A stretch of DNA of 39,353 nucleotides from a virus, in IMG/VR virus record IMGVR_UViG_3300028800_000191, positions 1 through 39,353 of that record; one strand, given 5' to 3'. Positions within the stretch are counted from its first letter, which is position 1. Each line of letters begins with the position of its first letter. The notes below the pieces were generated by a model. The model did no database searches and was not told where the DNA came from. It worked only from the letters and a program-made list of their open reading frames with translations. Shown here piece after piece: positions 2,495-10,032 of this stretch. The position numbers were made by a program, and so were the translations under genes.

Positions 2495-2568
2495 AGGAGA
2501 GTATATCAATTGGTTAGATTATCGCTCTGATACGGCGAAGGTTAGTGGTTCAAATCCACTCTCTCCTA
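2495..2568 (+). tRNA. tRNA-Ile (anticodon GAT)
   Basis: Acceptor stem 2495-2501 pairs with 2561-2567, with discriminator A2568. The anticodon stem 2522-2526/2534-2538 closes a seven-base loop reading CTGATAC, giving anticodon GAT. The T arm (AGTGG-TTCAAAT-CCACT) is perfect. CCA is not encoded. Confidence 0.93.
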
Positions 2569-4837: not shown

Positions 4838-5033
4838 AACAAAAATAATTAAGGTGAATTTCAGTGGGCTATGGTATTTCCTTGCATTTTTCCTTTACCT
4901 ATTACCATTAGACAACGGATTTATTGGGGCATTTTTCACAGCATTTCTTGGTAGATTTTATGTAGCCTATTTCTTGATCAAACATCACAAGTTATTGATG
5001 GAGTTTTGTGAAAATATTACAGGAGCTTTTTGA
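4830..5033 (+). CDS. Small membrane protein
   Basis: A 67-residue protein from ATG 4830. Residues about 14-50 are strongly hydrophobic (LWYFLAFFLYLLPL, then FIGAFFTAFLGRFYVAYFLI), consistent with two closely spaced membrane helices around a short Asp-Asn-Gly turn, with a basic 'KHHK' after the second. A holin-like role is possible, but neither position nor motif proves it. Confidence 0.5.
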   Translation: MNETKIIKVNFSGLWYFLAFFLYLLPLDNGFIGAFFTAFLGRFYVAYFLIKHHKLLMEFCENITGAF

Positions 5034-5035
5034 AG

Positions 5036-5194
5036 ATGATAGTCAAATTTGAACCTGATGAAGAAGCGCCAGCATATTTCGGTAAAATATATGAGCAAAT
5101 AACACTTTTGACCCCGATTTCTCTTCCTGATCCTTTATTAGTATATGGACGTGTACTACTTACAGAAATGGAGAAAAATAAAAATGCCCCGTAA
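5036..5194 (+). CDS. Small hypothetical protein upstream of terminase
   Basis: A 52-residue frame with AGGAG about ten bases upstream of ATG 5036. It begins MIVKFEPDEEAPAYFGKIYEQ and includes 'LLTPISLPDPLLVYG'. No family recognised. It fills the gap before, and overlaps by 11 bases, the small terminase gene. Confidence 0.45.
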   Translation: MIVKFEPDEEAPAYFGKIYEQITLLTPISLPDPLLVYGRVLLTEMEKNKNAP

Positions 5195-5651
5195 ACCTAG
5201 TGGAAGGCCAGTTGGAAGACCAGAAAAACCAATAGATTGGTCTCAGTTCGAACAACTATGCGCTCTTCAATGTACTCAGTCTGAGATAGGCAGCATGCTC
5301 AAGTTGTGCAAGGAAGCATTAACTAAACGTGTGCGCGAGCACTATGGTGAAGAATACATGACCGTATATAAAAGGTTTTGTGAGAACGGTAAGTGTTCTT
5401 TGCGAAGAAATCAGTTTGTATTAAGTAAAAAAAATGCTTCACTAGCGATTTGGCTCGGAAAGATCTGGCTTGGTCAAAAAGACCCTGGCATTGATGAAAC
5501 CAAAGAGGATGCTCTAAATGCAATTAGACAAGCTATCAAAGAAATTTCCGCAGAACCACGAATTGATGCTTCTCAAAGACCCCCTGTGGAGATTAAACAA
5601 CTTATATTGGATAAAGAACTCGGAGGGGAAAAGACAGAAATTTCAACTTAA
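5184..5651 (+). CDS. Terminase small subunit-like DNA-binding protein
   Basis: Start set at ATG 5184 (GGAG upstream), giving 155 residues; a longer frame from 5145 overlaps the preceding gene. The N-terminus has an AT-hook-like 'GRPVGRPEKP', followed by 'WSQFEQLCALQCTQSEIGSMLKLCKEALTKRV', a helix-turn-helix typical of phage small terminase subunits, then 'SLRRNQFVLSKKNASLAIWLGKIWLGQKD', a conserved oligomerisation segment of this family. Small subunits recognise the pac site and regulate the large subunit. The last 134 bases overlap the large-subunit gene in another frame. Confidence 0.8.
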   Translation: MPRKPSGRPVGRPEKPIDWSQFEQLCALQCTQSEIGSMLKLCKEALTKRVREHYGEEYMTVYKRFCENGKCSLRRNQFVLSKKNASLAIWLGKIWLGQKDPGIDETKEDALNAIRQAIKEISAEPRIDASQRPPVEIKQLILDKELGGEKTEIST

Positions 5652-8010
5652 CTGGGCACAAGAAATCCTATGGAGAGAACAACATGAGTGCAATATCATC
5701 CTTAAAGCTCGTCAGCTCGGAATCACAACATACGGATGTATTTTCCAACTCGACAAAGTACTCTGGGAAGAAAATATTCAAGCAGGAATTATCGCGCATA
5801 CTCTCGATGATGCGTCTAATCTCTTCAAAGACAAGCTTAAATACGCATTTGATCAGTTACATCCCAATATTCGGAAGCTATTCAAACTCGTGGGTGATTC
5901 AGCCAAAGAACTTAGCTTCTCGCATGGTAGCACAATTCGTGTCGGTACATCTCTTCGTTCATCGACTCTTCAATACCTTCATATTAGCGAATTCGGAAAG
6001 ATATGTGCCAAGTATCCAGAGAGAGCGCGTGAGATCATTACAGGATCTCTAAACACGGTTCATGCAGGCCAGCATATTACTATTGAATCTACAGCAGAAG
6101 GAAAAGAAGGCCCATTTTATAATATGTGCCAGGATTCGATGATTAATCCACCTAAATCACCGATGGATTTTAAATTCTTTTTCTTTCCCTGGTGGCAACA
6201 TCCTGAATATTCACAGGGCGTTCAAGTTGAGCTATCGACAGACCTTAAAGAATATTTCAATAAACTGCATTTAGATGGAATCAAGTTAACTGATCCTCAA
6301 AAATGGTGGTATGCGAACAAATATAAAATACAAAAAGATGATATGTTTCGCGAGTTCCCGTCGAAGCCTGAAGAGGCTTTTTCAGCTTCGCAGGAGGGAT
6401 ATTGGTATGCCACTCCTATCAAGGAGATATATGATAGCGGTAGGTGCACTAATATTGCATATGATCGCGGATTGCCTGTACATACTGCATGGGATCTTGG
6501 ACAAAGCGATTATATGGCTATCTGGTTTTTCCAGATAAATAGATCGGATGACATAAATATTATCGATTATTGGCAGAAGAATAATACGCCATTGGATCAA
6601 GTCTCTATCCTGTTAAAAAATAAGGGATATAATTATGGAACTCACATTTGGCCTCATGATGCTAACGCACGCGATCGTGGTGGTATTACTTTTGTTCAGC
6701 AAGCAAGACCGCTGGGACTTACTGGTATTGTGCTTGAGCCTCATTCTTTTATACAGGGTGTTAACCTTGTGAAAACTACTCTTAGCAAATGCTGGTTCGA
6801 TAAGACAAAGTGCGCTGAGGGTTTGAGAATGCTTGAAAATTACAAAAAGAAATGGTCTACTTCCTTCGGTGGGTGGACTGCCGATCCAGTTCACGATGAG
6901 AGCAGTCATGGTTGTTTTATTGGAACAACTTTAATAGACACTCTCGAAGGCAAAAAGCGAATTGATTCTATAAAGAAAGGCGATCAAGTTTTAACAGCAG
7001 TAGGATATAAAAAAGTTACTGATACGTTTGAATATGATGCGCAAGACTTTGTTTATGTAAAAACATCTTCTTCTAGTTTCATATGCACTGGTAACCACAA
7101 GATTTTTACAGAAAAAGGTCTTGAAAGTTCGGATTCATTGAGATATAATGATGCGTTATTTCACAGAAGAGATTTTAGCGCATGCAGAGTGATATTTGGA
7201 TACCATGGAAAGGGGAAAAACTTAGGGTTCAGGGACTATTTCTCATCAATGAAGATAGAGAGATTATCTATTTCAACGGATATAGATATAAATGGGACGG
7301 AAATTACTACCGAAAAGCTGTTAGCAATTGCAGCCCATTCTCCACGCTTCAGAGAGCTGTATGGGCTTATCATTTCGGGGAAATTGGCGAAGGATATCAT
7401 GTTCATCATCGAGACGAAAACAAAAGAAACAATAATATTGAGAATCTTGAAAGAATCGAAATTTCTGCTCACATGCGATTACATTTTACTGAAGAGAAAC
7501 GTAATAATTCTAGGGAAACCATTAAGATCGCTATGCTGCAAGCTAAAGTTTGGCATGCGTCTGAAGAAGGCATGGAATGGCATAGAAAACACGGCAAAAA
7601 AACTTTTAAAAACAAAATTTGGTTTGAAAAATCTTGTGATCAATGCTCAGGAAAATATAAAACTCCATGGGATCATGCCAGATTTTGTTCAAATAAATGC
7701 AAAACAAGAAACAGATATATTTCAGGAATCGACAATGAATCTAGAAAATGCAAAATATGCGACTCAGAATTCGTTTGCAACAGATTCCTTCTTAAGCGAA
7801 CGTGTAGTAAAAGTTGTCATGTCTCGCTCACCAACTACACTAAAAGTTTACGATCTTGAAGTTGAAGGAGACCATTGCTACTTTGCAAATGATATTCTCG
7901 TAAGCAATAGCGATGCATTTAGATATCTTTGTGCGGGTATTAAACGAGCAATTTCTACTGATGGATCTCTAGAAGGAGATTTCAGTGCGCTGCGCAAATA
8001 TTGGGGTTAA
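5518..8010 (+). CDS. terL: Terminase large subunit interrupted by an intein
   Basis: An 830-residue precursor. After removal of a 332-residue intein (residues 466-797) the enzyme would be 498 residues, a normal size. The ATPase half shows a Walker A-like 'LKARQLGITT' (62-71), Walker B 'LQYLHISEF' (151-159) and coupling motif 'STAEG' (191-195). The RNase H-like nuclease has Asp326 in 'AWDLGQSD', Asp381 in 'WPHDANARD', and the last acidic residue Asp799 in 'SDAFRYL' just after the intein. AAAGAGG upstream supports ATG 5518. The enzyme packages DNA into proheads through the portal. Splicing is required to rebuild the nuclease site because the intein lies between 'SHG' and 'SDAFRY'. Confidence 0.93.
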   Translation: MQLDKLSKKFPQNHELMLLKDPLWRLNNLYWIKNSEGKRQKFQLNWAQEILWREQHECNIILKARQLGITTYGCIFQLDKVLWEENIQAGIIAHTLDDASNLFKDKLKYAFDQLHPNIRKLFKLVGDSAKELSFSHGSTIRVGTSLRSSTLQYLHISEFGKICAKYPERAREIITGSLNTVHAGQHITIESTAEGKEGPFYNMCQDSMINPPKSPMDFKFFFFPWWQHPEYSQGVQVELSTDLKEYFNKLHLDGIKLTDPQKWWYANKYKIQKDDMFREFPSKPEEAFSASQEGYWYATPIKEIYDSGRCTNIAYDRGLPVHTAWDLGQSDYMAIWFFQINRSDDINIIDYWQKNNTPLDQVSILLKNKGYNYGTHIWPHDANARDRGGITFVQQARPLGLTGIVLEPHSFIQGVNLVKTTLSKCWFDKTKCAEGLRMLENYKKKWSTSFGGWTADPVHDESSHGCFIGTTLIDTLEGKKRIDSIKKGDQVLTAVGYKKVTDTFEYDAQDFVYVKTSSSSFICTGNHKIFTEKGLESSDSLRYNDALFHRRDFSACRVIFGYHGKGKNLGFRDYFSSMKIERLSISTDIDINGTEITTEKLLAIAAHSPRFRELYGLIISGKLAKDIMFIIETKTKETIILRILKESKFLLTCDYILLKRNVIILGKPLRSLCCKLKFGMRLKKAWNGIENTAKKLLKTKFGLKNLVINAQENIKLHGIMPDFVQINAKQETDIFQESTMNLENAKYATQNSFATDSFLSERVVKVVMSRSPTTLKVYDLEVEGDHCYFANDILVSNSDAFRYLCAGIKRAISTDGSLEGDFSALRKYWG
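6913..7908 (+). mobile_element. Intein in terL
   Basis: In-frame insertion of 332 codons, from Cys466 to Asn797 of the precursor. Block A is 'CFIGTTLIDTLEGKKRIDS' with Cys1, block B is 'CTGNHKIF' with the catalytic His527, block F is 'VYDLEVEGDHCYFAND' and block G ends 'ILVSN' followed by Ser+1. The penultimate residue is Ser instead of the usual His. The central part (about residues 551-770) shows no endonuclease motif in this frame; an HNH endonuclease is encoded there in a different frame. The site, next to the last catalytic Asp of the terminase nuclease, is a typical conserved intein target. Confidence 0.93.
7182..7859 (+). CDS. HNH homing endonuclease nested out of frame in the terL intein
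   Basis: A 225-residue protein lying wholly within the intein but in another reading frame. Residues 55-101 carry a classic HNH_3-type core: 'LQRAVWAYHFGEIGEGYHVHH', 'DENKRNNNIENLE' and His97 in 'SAHMRLHF'. The C-terminal part has two Cys clusters, C152/C155/C169/C173 and C190/C193/C208/C212, likely zinc fingers for target binding. A frame stop TAG lies two codons before the ATG, so it is not a simple extension of an upstream frame. AGAAGAGA about nine bases upstream could serve as ribosome site. It would cut intein-less terL alleles and drive intein homing. The stop falls inside the sequence coding intein block F. Confidence 0.88.
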   Translation: MQSDIWIPWKGEKLRVQGLFLINEDREIIYFNGYRYKWDGNYYRKAVSNCSPFSTLQRAVWAYHFGEIGEGYHVHHRDENKRNNNIENLERIEISAHMRLHFTEEKRNNSRETIKIAMLQAKVWHASEEGMEWHRKHGKKTFKNKIWFEKSCDQCSGKYKTPWDHARFCSNKCKTRNRYISGIDNESRKCKICDSEFVCNRFLLKRTCSKSCHVSLTNYTKSLRS

Positions 8011-8039
8011 ATGAGCCTAAATAATGGAATATAAAAAAT

Positions 8040-8312
8040 ATGAAAATTATACCAACTAGTGGCAGACTTGTTCTGCAAAAGATTAAAGAAGAAGAAAAAC
8101 CCCAGGGGCTTGTTATTGTACCTAACTCTGCGCCCGTTCAAGCCAAATATAAGATCGTTGCTGCTCCAGCGTTCTATATTGATACTGGCATGCGTTTAAA
8201 TGTAGGTGATGTCGTATACATCGACAAGTACAAGGCTATGGAGATAACAAAAGATGGCTCTAGTTATCTGGTTATTAAAGAAGAAGATGTTATTGCCTAT
8301 GAGGCGGGGTGA
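8040..8312 (+). CDS. GroES-like (Cpn10) cochaperonin
   Basis: A 90-residue protein of the usual GroES length. It starts 'IPTSGRLVLQKIKEEEKPQGLVIVPNS' (the Cpn10 first strand and mobile-loop-containing region) and ends 'VVYIDKYKAMEITKDGSSYLVIKEEDVIAYE', matching the GroES C-terminal barrel strands. Phage GroES homologues such as T4 gp31 replace or assist the host cochaperonin in folding the capsid protein on host GroEL. No GroEL is encoded here. The mobile loop between residues 22 and 36 is short and atypical. It sits 30 bases after terL and ends right at the methyltransferase start. Confidence 0.82.
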   Translation: MKIIPTSGRLVLQKIKEEEKPQGLVIVPNSAPVQAKYKIVAAPAFYIDTGMRLNVGDVVYIDKYKAMEITKDGSSYLVIKEEDVIAYEAG

Positions 8313-9149
8313 ATGTTAAATGGTTTGGATTTATTTAGCGGAATCGGAGGAATCTCAGTCGCACTTAAAGAATGGGTCAGACCAGTCGCCTATTGCGAGA
8401 TCGACCCCTATTGTCAAGGAGTACTCATCACCGATATGGAAAGAGGTAGATTGTGCAGTTCACCCATTTGGGATGATGTCAAAACGCTTCATAGATCACA
8501 TATCGGATCTATGCCCATCGATATCATTTACGGGGGCTTTCCATGCCAGGATATCAGCGTTGCGGGTCGTGGAAGGGGTCTGGAGGGGGAGCGAAGCGGT
8601 CTATTTTTCGAGATCGTGCGCTTGGCCAAAGAAATCAAGCCCAAGTTCTTATTCCTTGAAAACGTCCCAGCAATCACCTCAAGAGGAGGACTTCAAGTCG
8701 TTAGAGAAATTACCGAAATGGGGTATGATTGTAGATGGTGTGTTATATCCGCTGCATCAATTGGAGCACTACACCGTCGCGAAAGGTGGTTCTTGCTTGC
8801 CAAGTCCAGCGGCAAGGGACTGGAAGGACACAGGGACGGAACCGAGCGCTCAAGCGAGAAAGAGTCCATGCCTTCCAGCGTTCATGAATATGATGTTTCC
8901 AACTCCCCAAGCTTGCGATGCAACCAAGGGTCCAGCGAAGGAATATATACCGAACGGCAGACAAGCAAGCATGCGGAATCTACCAACAATAGCAGCCAAG
9001 TTCTCAACTACTGGCAAAATACTGAACCCCCAGTTTGTGGAGTGGCTCATGGAGTACCCAATCGGGTGGACAGAATTAGAGCACTGGGCAATGCGGTGGT
9101 TCCAAGCCAAGCGAAAAAAGCGTTCAAAATCTTAATGGGGCTTACATGA
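8313..9149 (+). CDS. C5-cytosine DNA methyltransferase
   Basis: A 278-residue enzyme that transfers methyl from SAM to C5 of cytosine. Motif I 'DLFSGIGG' (6-13), motif IV 'GGFPCQD' with catalytic Cys78, motif VI 'ENV' (116-118), motif VIII-like 'GALHRRERWF' (151-160) and motif X 'RALGNAVVPSQ' near residue 255 are all present. Between about residue 163 and 235 the expected target-recognition domain is replaced by a short Ser/polar-rich stretch. A second frame is open along almost the whole gene (8320-9135). No cognate restriction enzyme is adjacent, so it is probably an orphan enzyme masking the phage genome. GGGGTGA precedes ATG 8313; the stop overlaps the next start (ATGA). Confidence 0.9.
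   Translation: MLNGLDLFSGIGGISVALKEWVRPVAYCEIDPYCQGVLITDMERGRLCSSPIWDDVKTLHRSHIGSMPIDIIYGGFPCQDISVAGRGRGLEGERSGLFFEIVRLAKEIKPKFLFLENVPAITSRGGLQVVREITEMGYDCRWCVISAASIGALHRRERWFLLAKSSGKGLEGHRDGTERSSEKESMPSSVHEYDVSNSPSLRCNQGSSEGIYTERQTSKHAESTNNSSQVLNYWQNTEPPVCGVAHGVPNRVDRIRALGNAVVPSQAKKAFKILMGLT
8320..9135 (+). CDS. Overlapping second-frame protein within the methyltransferase gene
   Basis: A 271-codon frame with ATG seven bases after that of the methyltransferase, running almost to its end with no stop. Its C-terminal half contains 'CLPSPAARDWKDTGTEPS', 'MFPTPQACDATKGPA' and 'LNPQFVEWLMEYPIGWTELE', a pattern I recognise from many annotated phage proteins ('LPTPxAxDxK ... LNPxWVEWLMGFPxGWT'). 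The region coding 'NPQFVEWLMEYPIGW' is the same DNA that codes the 'VPNRVDRIRALGN' part of the other frame. Either both products are made, or the second is a shadow preserved by constraint on the methyltransferase. No good ribosome site of its own; coupling to the first start is possible. Function unknown. Confidence 0.45.
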   Translation: MVWIYLAESEESQSHLKNGSDQSPIARSTPIVKEYSSPIWKEVDCAVHPFGMMSKRFIDHISDLCPSISFTGAFHARISALRVVEGVWRGSEAVYFSRSCAWPKKSSPSSYSLKTSQQSPQEEDFKSLEKLPKWGMIVDGVLYPLHQLEHYTVAKGGSCLPSPAARDWKDTGTEPSAQARKSPCLPAFMNMMFPTPQACDATKGPAKEYIPNGRQASMRNLPTIAAKFSTTGKILNPQFVEWLMEYPIGWTELEHWAMRWFQAKRKKRSKS

Positions 9150-9340
9150 TCTGGAAGGACGCTATAAATACACCTCCTGAATGTCACTGCAAATGCGAGG
9201 TTCTATTGCCGCGTGAAGACGGCGACATAGACCAGTATGAGGCGGACTATGACATATTTATGAAGGTGTTCTTAATACCTACCCTTAGTACCGATAAAGA
9301 GGGCGTTCATACTCATGTCAGTCATTGGAGGGCTTTATGA
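9146..9340 (+). CDS. DUF551-like small protein
   Basis: A 64-residue protein. The order 'WKDAINTPPE' at the start, 'EVLLPRED' in the middle and 'VSHWRAL' at the end fits the DUF551 pattern (W-x-PP ... VL ... THWxPLP) common in phages and prophages; function unknown. It is coupled on both sides by ATGA overlaps, to the methyltransferase upstream and the phosphoesterase downstream. Confidence 0.7.
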   Translation: MIWKDAINTPPECHCKCEVLLPREDGDIDQYEADYDIFMKVFLIPTLSTDKEGVHTHVSHWRAL

Positions 9341-10032
9341 TAATAGATTGTATCTCCGACCTCCACGGAAATTATCCCACATTAGACGGCGGTGATCTGT
9401 TGATTGTCGCCGGGGATCTGACGGCTAGGGATACTCCCTATGAAAGATTAGAATTTTTGGAATGGTTAGCTAATCAAGAATACAAAAGAAAGATATTCAT
9501 TGCTGGTAATCATGATAATTCATTAATAAACCAATCATTTACAAAAACGCGAAATGATGGAGTGGATTATCTCTGCGACTCAGGCACTGAATTTGAGTAT
9601 GAGGAACCTGTCCGCAATCTATTTGATCCTAACGACGAATCGCTTTTCTTTAAGAAAAAGCTAAAGATCTGGGGCTCTCCTTGGACGCTTACATTCCCCG
9701 GCATCAATCCCAAATGCACTGCGTTCACTGGCGACGAGGAGCTATTGGCGAGCAAGTTTGCGCTGATCCCTGATGATGTGGACATTTTGATTACTCATGG
9801 GCCTCCTTTCACCATCTTAGATAAGACGAATAGAGGAGAACAAGTTGGCTCTATCAATCTCATGGCTCATCATTTAAAAAGATTGAGGCCTAGGTTGTTT
9901 GTCTTTGGGCATATTCATGAGGCCTATGGGCAAGAAGGACCGCATCAATGGAATAATACTAAATACGTAAACTGCTCTCACGTCAACGAGCATTATGAGC
10001 CGGTCAATAAGCCTATTAGGATTATATTATGA
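9337..10032 (+). CDS. Calcineurin-like metallophosphoesterase
   Basis: Start set at ATG 9337, overlapping the previous stop and preceded by GGAGGG; 231 residues. All metal-binding blocks are visible: 'SDLHG' (D8, H10), 'AGDLTA' (D27), 'GNHD' (N58, H59), 'ITHGPP' and 'FGHIHEAYG'. Enzymes of this superfamily use two metal ions to hydrolyse phosphomonoesters or phosphodiesters; the substrate cannot be read from sequence. This subtype (small, 'xxDTPYERLEFLEWLANQ') resembles stand-alone phosphoesterases found in both phages and cells. It is the last gene of the methyltransferase cluster. Confidence 0.88.
   Translation: MIIDCISDLHGNYPTLDGGDLLIVAGDLTARDTPYERLEFLEWLANQEYKRKIFIAGNHDNSLINQSFTKTRNDGVDYLCDSGTEFEYEEPVRNLFDPNDESLFFKKKLKIWGSPWTLTFPGINPKCTAFTGDEELLASKFALIPDDVDILITHGPPFTILDKTNRGEQVGSINLMAHHLKRLRPRLFVFGHIHEAYGQEGPHQWNNTKYVNCSHVNEHYEPVNKPIRIIL

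Follow-up and report, generated by a model that had tools for sequence, protein, structure and literature searches.

The 39,353-nucleotide stretch of viral DNA analysed here (IMG/VR record IMGVR_UViG_3300028800_000191; hereafter, the window) raises the question of why a complete HNH endonuclease gene lies out of frame within the intein of a terminase large subunit gene (terL) whose own frame stays open.

Anatomy of the intein and its nested gene

In the window, terL is a stop-free open reading frame of 830 aa (5518-8010, +) with the following features:

5518-6912 (+): TerL N-terminal extein (phrog_2 terminase large subunit, 2.3e-28; Terminase_6C, 2e-4; uninvaded homologues 73-80% identical)
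6913-7908 (+): intein in the terL frame, 332 aa (Pfam Intein_splicing, 5e-8; PT-HINT, 4e-7)
6913-7182 (+): N-terminal half of the splicing (HINT) domain, with Cys1 and blocks A and B (TxxH) (AF2 block pLDDT 83-97, residues 1-90)
7165-7171 (+): weak purine-rich Shine-Dalgarno-like AGAAGAG, 10 nt 5' of the HNH ATG (read from the sequence)
7176-7178 (+): TAG stop in the HNH frame, just 5' of the HNH start codon (read from the sequence)
7182-7859 (+): HNH homing endonuclease gene, 225 aa, with its own ATG and stop (HNH_3, 1.6e-12; phrog_15471 HNH endonuclease, 1.1e-31)
7183-7812 (+): open stretch of the terL frame serving as a pass-through linker, with disorder predicted and no protein conservation (AF2 block pLDDT mostly 34-61; omega mostly at least 1)
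7350-7475 (+): HNH catalytic core, residues 57-98 (Pfam HNH_3 match)
7635-7700 (+): first four-Cys cluster, C152, C155, C169, and C173, a probable zinc site (at least 90% conserved in 40 relatives)
7749-7817 (+): second four-Cys cluster, C190, C193, C208, and C212, a probable zinc site (at least 90% conserved in 40 relatives)
7813-7908 (+): C-terminal half of the splicing domain, with blocks F and G, ending ILVSN (AF2 pLDDT 80-95, residues 301-332; NCBIfam intein_Cterm, 1.3e-5)
7909-8010 (+): TerL C-terminal extein, SDAFRY onward, including the stop codon (alignment to uninvaded TerL proteins L258-L260 and L266, e.g., CADSFRYLVAGIKR)

The intein is inserted at the TerL nuclease motif (HDxxSHG^SDAFRY), and its catalytic residues are Cys1 (6913), a TGNH block B, Asn332 (7906-7908), and a +1 Ser. 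Cys1, block B, the terminal Asn, and the +1 residue were preserved in nearly all relatives listed. The penultimate residue in the window is Ser rather than the His found in many relatives; a penultimate His is usual in inteins but not strictly defining, and it is inconsistently maintained among them (PMC5050341). In the AF2 model of the terL frame, the two terminal blocks (residues 1-90 and 301-332) were well predicted, and the splicing domain that they form has a HINT fold matching the gp41-1 intein (prob 1.00, rmsd 1.4, 86 columns), which was the best solved relative both by sequence (1.4e-6) and by fold (2.9e-7). An HMM built from relatives placed the end of the N-terminal splicing half at 7191.

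The HNH codons are offset by +2 from those of terL on the same strand, equivalent to the -1 frame, and the endonuclease therefore does not share the frame of the splicing domain. Core residues H75, H76, D78, N84, N88, and H97 were invariant across 40 relatives, and the AF2 model of the HNH frame had a mean pLDDT of 94.8. By its profile matches and this conservation, the second frame encodes an HNH nuclease with a catalytic His/Asn core, predicted to cleave DNA. Searches of the PDB with the HNH protein by sequence and by fold returned little, and PADLOC run on the window returned generic homing-endonuclease models only. Upstream of the nested ATG, the longest exact match to the anti-Shine-Dalgarno complement was 3 nt. 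The profile matches and Cys conservation listed above bear out both elements that the earlier note had read from the letters, namely a terL-frame intein at 6913-7908 and a complete out-of-frame HNH gene at 7182-7859, with two Cys clusters and an ATG after an in-frame TAG.

Two other features of the window were recorded. Immediately after terL lies a second dual-coded stretch, in which frames 8313-9149 and 8320-9135 (+) overlap almost fully. One frame matches a C5-cytosine methyltransferase (PF00145, 2e-39); the other matches phrog_1008 DNA methyltransferase (5e-16, best over residues 73-227) and also mycobacteriophage regions with two annotated DNA methylase genes. Upstream of the packaging genes, tRNA genes for Asp(gtc) and Ile(gat) were found at 2352-2424 and 2495-2568 (+).

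Distribution of the nested layout among relatives

A tblastn search of annotated phages yielded 20 records with relatives of the HNH protein. The gene lies inside terL at offset +2 in the isolates Acinetobacter phage Highwayman and Tetrasphaera phage TJE1 and in the complete phage record Rhodobacteraceae phage LS06-2018-MD07, each annotated with "terminase large subunit," and is likewise nested at +2 in the gut-phage record MT838676. Free-standing relatives adjoin terL or terS in PAE1, SN1, FBPa53, Poludnitsa, EauM-23, BP10, and Shemara.

Combining annotated phages, viral contigs, and bacterial and archaeal genomes gave 161 distinct HNH loci, which we classed with HMMs of both splicing halves. 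In 109 of the 161, the HNH gene lay inside one unbroken terL-intein ORF, at offset +2 in 98, at +1 in 11, and in frame in none. Another 18 were flanked by the two halves of a split terL intein; the remainder either had no detected intein (30/161) or were cut at contig ends (4/161). The nested loci form 67 clusters at 50% HNH identity. Exteins were TerL in at least 42 of the 50 tested, belonging to several TerL families, and the usual insertion point, found in most loci, was the TerL C-terminal motif (D)xxH^(x)DAxRY.

We also assembled a sample without reference to the nuclease, using a scan with intein N-terminal halves plus one locus found via the window's own N-terminal half. These 61 distinct inteins, drawn mostly from one subclade, comprised 55 with a nested HNH gene at +2, 1 with a nested gene at +1, and 5 mini-inteins that lack HNH, have linkers of 23-34 aa, and occupy the same kind of TerL site. 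Scanning with the N-terminal half of the window intein alone gave a single weak locus, and scanning with intein alignment A6, which was insufficiently conserved, found little. The nuclease behaves as a removable module. Inteins kept with a broken HNH frame, which the earlier note had named as evidence against its reading, were encountered only as these clean mini-inteins (5/61) or as split, HNH-deleted derivatives (BL3 and L011), and both fit a modular nuclease. In the HNH tree, layout labels were clustered (22 changes versus 42 when shuffled) with several switches among +2, +1, split, and free-standing forms, on a topology with many weak branches.

Several observations were made alongside this census. 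The mini-inteins (L235, L241, L244, L251, and L254) are small and contiguous and may suit protein engineering. Apparently unrecognized split terL inteins are present in two isolates, Lactobacillus phage CL2 (L016, 1670-2771) and Brochothrix phage BL3 (L002, 727-2607); in both, the N-terminal half lies in the annotated terL, the C-terminal half is encoded apart from it (by gp3 in BL3 and by an unannotated ORF in CL2), and an HNH gene or HNH remnant lies between them. LAGLIDADG_3 and Hom_end matches in 1 of 50 TerL N-exteins (or in one member each) suggest that the terL gene concerned holds a further intein, with its endonuclease in frame.

Constraint on the two frames and expression of the nested gene

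To ask how often the terL frame would be open by chance, we shuffled HNH codons synonymously and counted terL-frame stops. In the window, this frame contains 0 stops across the HNH gene versus ~3.2 expected, with a probability of being open of ~0.006; the much smaller odds given previously (2e-5) came from a uniform random model and do not hold once the HNH protein is taken as given. Of the 120 loci whose two splicing halves share a frame, 109 were open versus 10.4 expected, although these are not independent trials because the loci are related. Since the nested class is itself defined by an unbroken ORF, zero stops within it is not a test, and the noncircular figures are this ratio and the 61-locus sample. 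The third frame of nested loci carried 1482 stops versus 1520 expected, and stops in the terL-equivalent frame were also near expectation in free-standing (98 versus 104) and split (120 versus 115) HNH genes, so only the frame that needs to be read through is kept clear. Stop avoidance is seen again at the protein level: Met was followed by a codon starting with A, which gives TGA in the terL frame, in 0 of 142 cases in +2 HNH genes versus 32 of 93 in free-standing and split genes. A chance open frame is thus ruled out by the shuffle counts.

Substitutions were counted in 18 pairs of related loci. Changes synonymous in HNH and nonsynonymous in terL were in excess in +2 pairs (516 versus 283 expected), as were HNH-silent, terL-altering changes in +1 pairs (138 versus 64 expected). 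Omega was mostly 0.2 to 0.5 in the HNH frame and mostly at least 1 in the terL frame of the overlap, with lower values there in a few pairs that differed at few sites. Purifying selection acts on the HNH frame, and the terL frame in the overlap is relaxed. Together with the low-confidence middle of the AF2 model, these counts identify the terL frame through the HNH gene as a pass-through linker. A conserved second protein there, considered because of matches to PHROG 30251 and 35162, was rejected on the same counts; the matches fit a coding shadow cast by the HNH motif, a KNGI stretch lying under KEWHxSEEG. The earlier note's reading of a nested, dual-coded unit of intein and nuclease is supported, the layout recurring in 109 loci, and both frames are indeed kept open; the middle of the terL frame is not a maintained second protein, and across the overlap only the HNH frame is constrained at that level.

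HNH start codons are mostly ATG. An in-frame stop precedes them by a median of 15 nt, and by no more than 30 nt in 69% of loci. Shine-Dalgarno matches of at least 5 nt precede 33% of nested +2, 53% of free-standing, and 56% of split genes, versus 8.6% of matched controls; many of the nested genes, among them the majority at +1, have no strong Shine-Dalgarno. From the start codons and this enrichment, we infer as the best account that the HNH protein is initiated separately from its own start, which would decouple nuclease synthesis from terminase synthesis. Programmed -1 ribosomal frameshifting, by which TerL and the N-terminal splicing half would be fused to HNH and no separate start would be used, agrees with the commonest offset (+2 corresponds to a -1 shift) and with the fact that ribosomes translating TerL already cross the site. 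However, slippery heptamers occurred in the possible shift interval in 7% of loci versus 6% of control windows, with none in the window, and the +1 copies would require another shift. The nearby upstream stops and the Shine-Dalgarno enrichment at the HNH start also argue against it, and we regard frameshifting as improbable.

Mobility and comparison with known systems

The TerL genes of L258-L260 and L266 are uninterrupted at the exact intein site. In L258, whose TerL is 78% identical, the empty site reads VHDECSH^CADSFRY, compared with VHDESSHG-intein-SDAFRY in the window. HNH pairs 60-74% identical reside in TerL proteins that are less than 30% identical, and such similarity between nucleases at the same site of unrelated TerLs is suggestive of transfer. 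The HNH gene probably spreads the intein, with target cleavage and homing predicted from these sequence comparisons.

Rather than homing, the HNH protein might serve TerL as a packaging cofactor, a role described for HK97-type HNH proteins, and be kept for that function. Literature cited in passages of PMC10448857 and PMC12613952 indicates that HNH proteins encoded next to terminases can take part in packaging, and free-standing relatives do adjoin terL. However, the HNH gene resides in an excisable intein, mini-inteins do without it, and the signs of transfer just described point to mobility. We found no clear member of the HNH family near terL in close uninvaded relatives, which argues against an essential packaging role, and we likewise judge this explanation unlikely. 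An RNA-level intron with an intron-encoded HNH gene is less probable still: phages often carry such genes and ICP1 has a spliced terL (PMC10448857), but the terL frame is open throughout and carries both intein halves, the catalytic Cys and Asn, and a HINT fold, and an Rfam search of 5000-9500 at the gathering threshold gave no match, including none to group I intron RNA structure. Finally, although the window is a metagenomic contig and in-frame endonucleases are the rule in inteins, displacement of an ordinary in-frame HNH domain by two compensating assembly or sequencing indels, the other objection foreseen in the earlier note, has next to no probability, because Highwayman, TJE1, and LS06-2018-MD07 show the same +2 layout, as do more than 100 contigs with none in frame, and the HNH gene has independent start and stop codons. 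The layout of the window is neither error nor chance.

We therefore consider it very probable that the locus is a mobile intein that occupies the TerL nuclease motif and carries its homing nuclease as a separate, out-of-frame nested gene, across which the terL frame is pass-through only. A complete HNH gene would occupy, out of frame, the splicing-domain loop that usually holds in-frame endonucleases. Ribosomes reading terL would cross it in the wrong frame, producing a long, probably disordered linker, and the two splicing halves would fold together, excise the linker, and restore TerL. Initiation by other ribosomes at the nested ATG would yield the HNH enzyme. In a coinfecting phage whose terL lacks the intein, this enzyme would cleave that same motif, and repair would then copy the intein along with its nuclease. 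All that selection would require of the terL frame in the overlap is essentially freedom from stops, and loss of openness would yield a split intein with the HNH gene between its halves. The frame bias may have a simple origin. In-frame insertion of a gene that ends in its own stop would cut TerL short, which would account for the absence of in-frame copies. In free-standing HNH genes, the two out-of-frame options contain 98 (+2) and 295 stops in 3266 codons, and the 98:11:0 distribution would follow from +2 making about one-third as many stops as the other.

A broader, two-part proposition is that, across tailed phages, the standard mobile intein at the TerL nuclease motif has an out-of-frame nested nuclease, and that this form is also the missing step from contiguous to split inteins, in which HNH invades a mini-intein, readthrough is forced, and lost openness gives "fractured" genes, including the gp41-1 type; we advance it tentatively, as slightly short of an even prospect. 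The series of free-standing nuclease, mini-intein, nested +2 or +1, and split forms offers material for testing nuclease entry and split-intein origin. More generally, the layout is a recurrent natural way to carry two functions in one DNA stretch, with one gene having to be read across another without meeting a stop. Annotations of many phage terL genes, and of the HNH genes they contain, are probably wrong. The gp41-1 intein is a widely used protein-ligation tool, and the loci described here include many new relatives of it, both contiguous and split.

Open PMC full texts yielded no description of an intein type with an out-of-frame nested nuclease, though one may exist elsewhere. Besides the fractured genes considered below, the nearest parallels are the ShiLan domain and Pacc40 insertions in phage methylases, which contain out-of-frame HNH genes and are explicitly not inteins (Arsenault et al. 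2025, PMC11855218). Like these, the window has an out-of-frame HNH gene in an insertion that is open in the frame of the host gene, and, as with Pacc40, relatives carry a similar HNH gene free-standing beside the host gene. Unlike these elements, which have no splicing domains and presumably remain part of the methylase, the window HNH gene is enclosed by a complete intein, and nested HNH inteins lie in terL across many phage groups. Canonical bifunctional inteins, including those in mycobacteriophage TerL, also hold the endonuclease between splicing blocks B and F, whereas in the window the endonuclease has a separate start and stop in another frame; the mycobacteriophage TerL inteins surveyed lie in the ATPase domain (Kelley et al. 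2016, PMC5050341), in contrast to insertion at the C-terminal nuclease motif here. The free-standing HNH genes next to terL in Pseudomonas phage PAE1, Sphaerotilus phage SN1, and others belong to the same HNH family, with the Cys clusters and ~35-40% identity, but they lie outside inteins and show no stop avoidance in another frame. Fractured genes, reportedly described by Dassa and colleagues in 2009 and said to be the source of gp41-1, have split inteins with a free-standing endonuclease gene between the halves. That study is cited in PMC10448857 and PMC7090010. Resemblance to them is close in that a phage intein and a separately encoded nuclease form one unit, gp41-1 is the closest solved intein, and the 18 split relatives carry HNH between the halves; the window differs in that terL (5518-8010) is unbroken, one ORF running through the out-of-frame nuclease gene. 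The arrangement is thus real, widespread, and apparently unnamed, a variant of the mobile intein rather than a new category.
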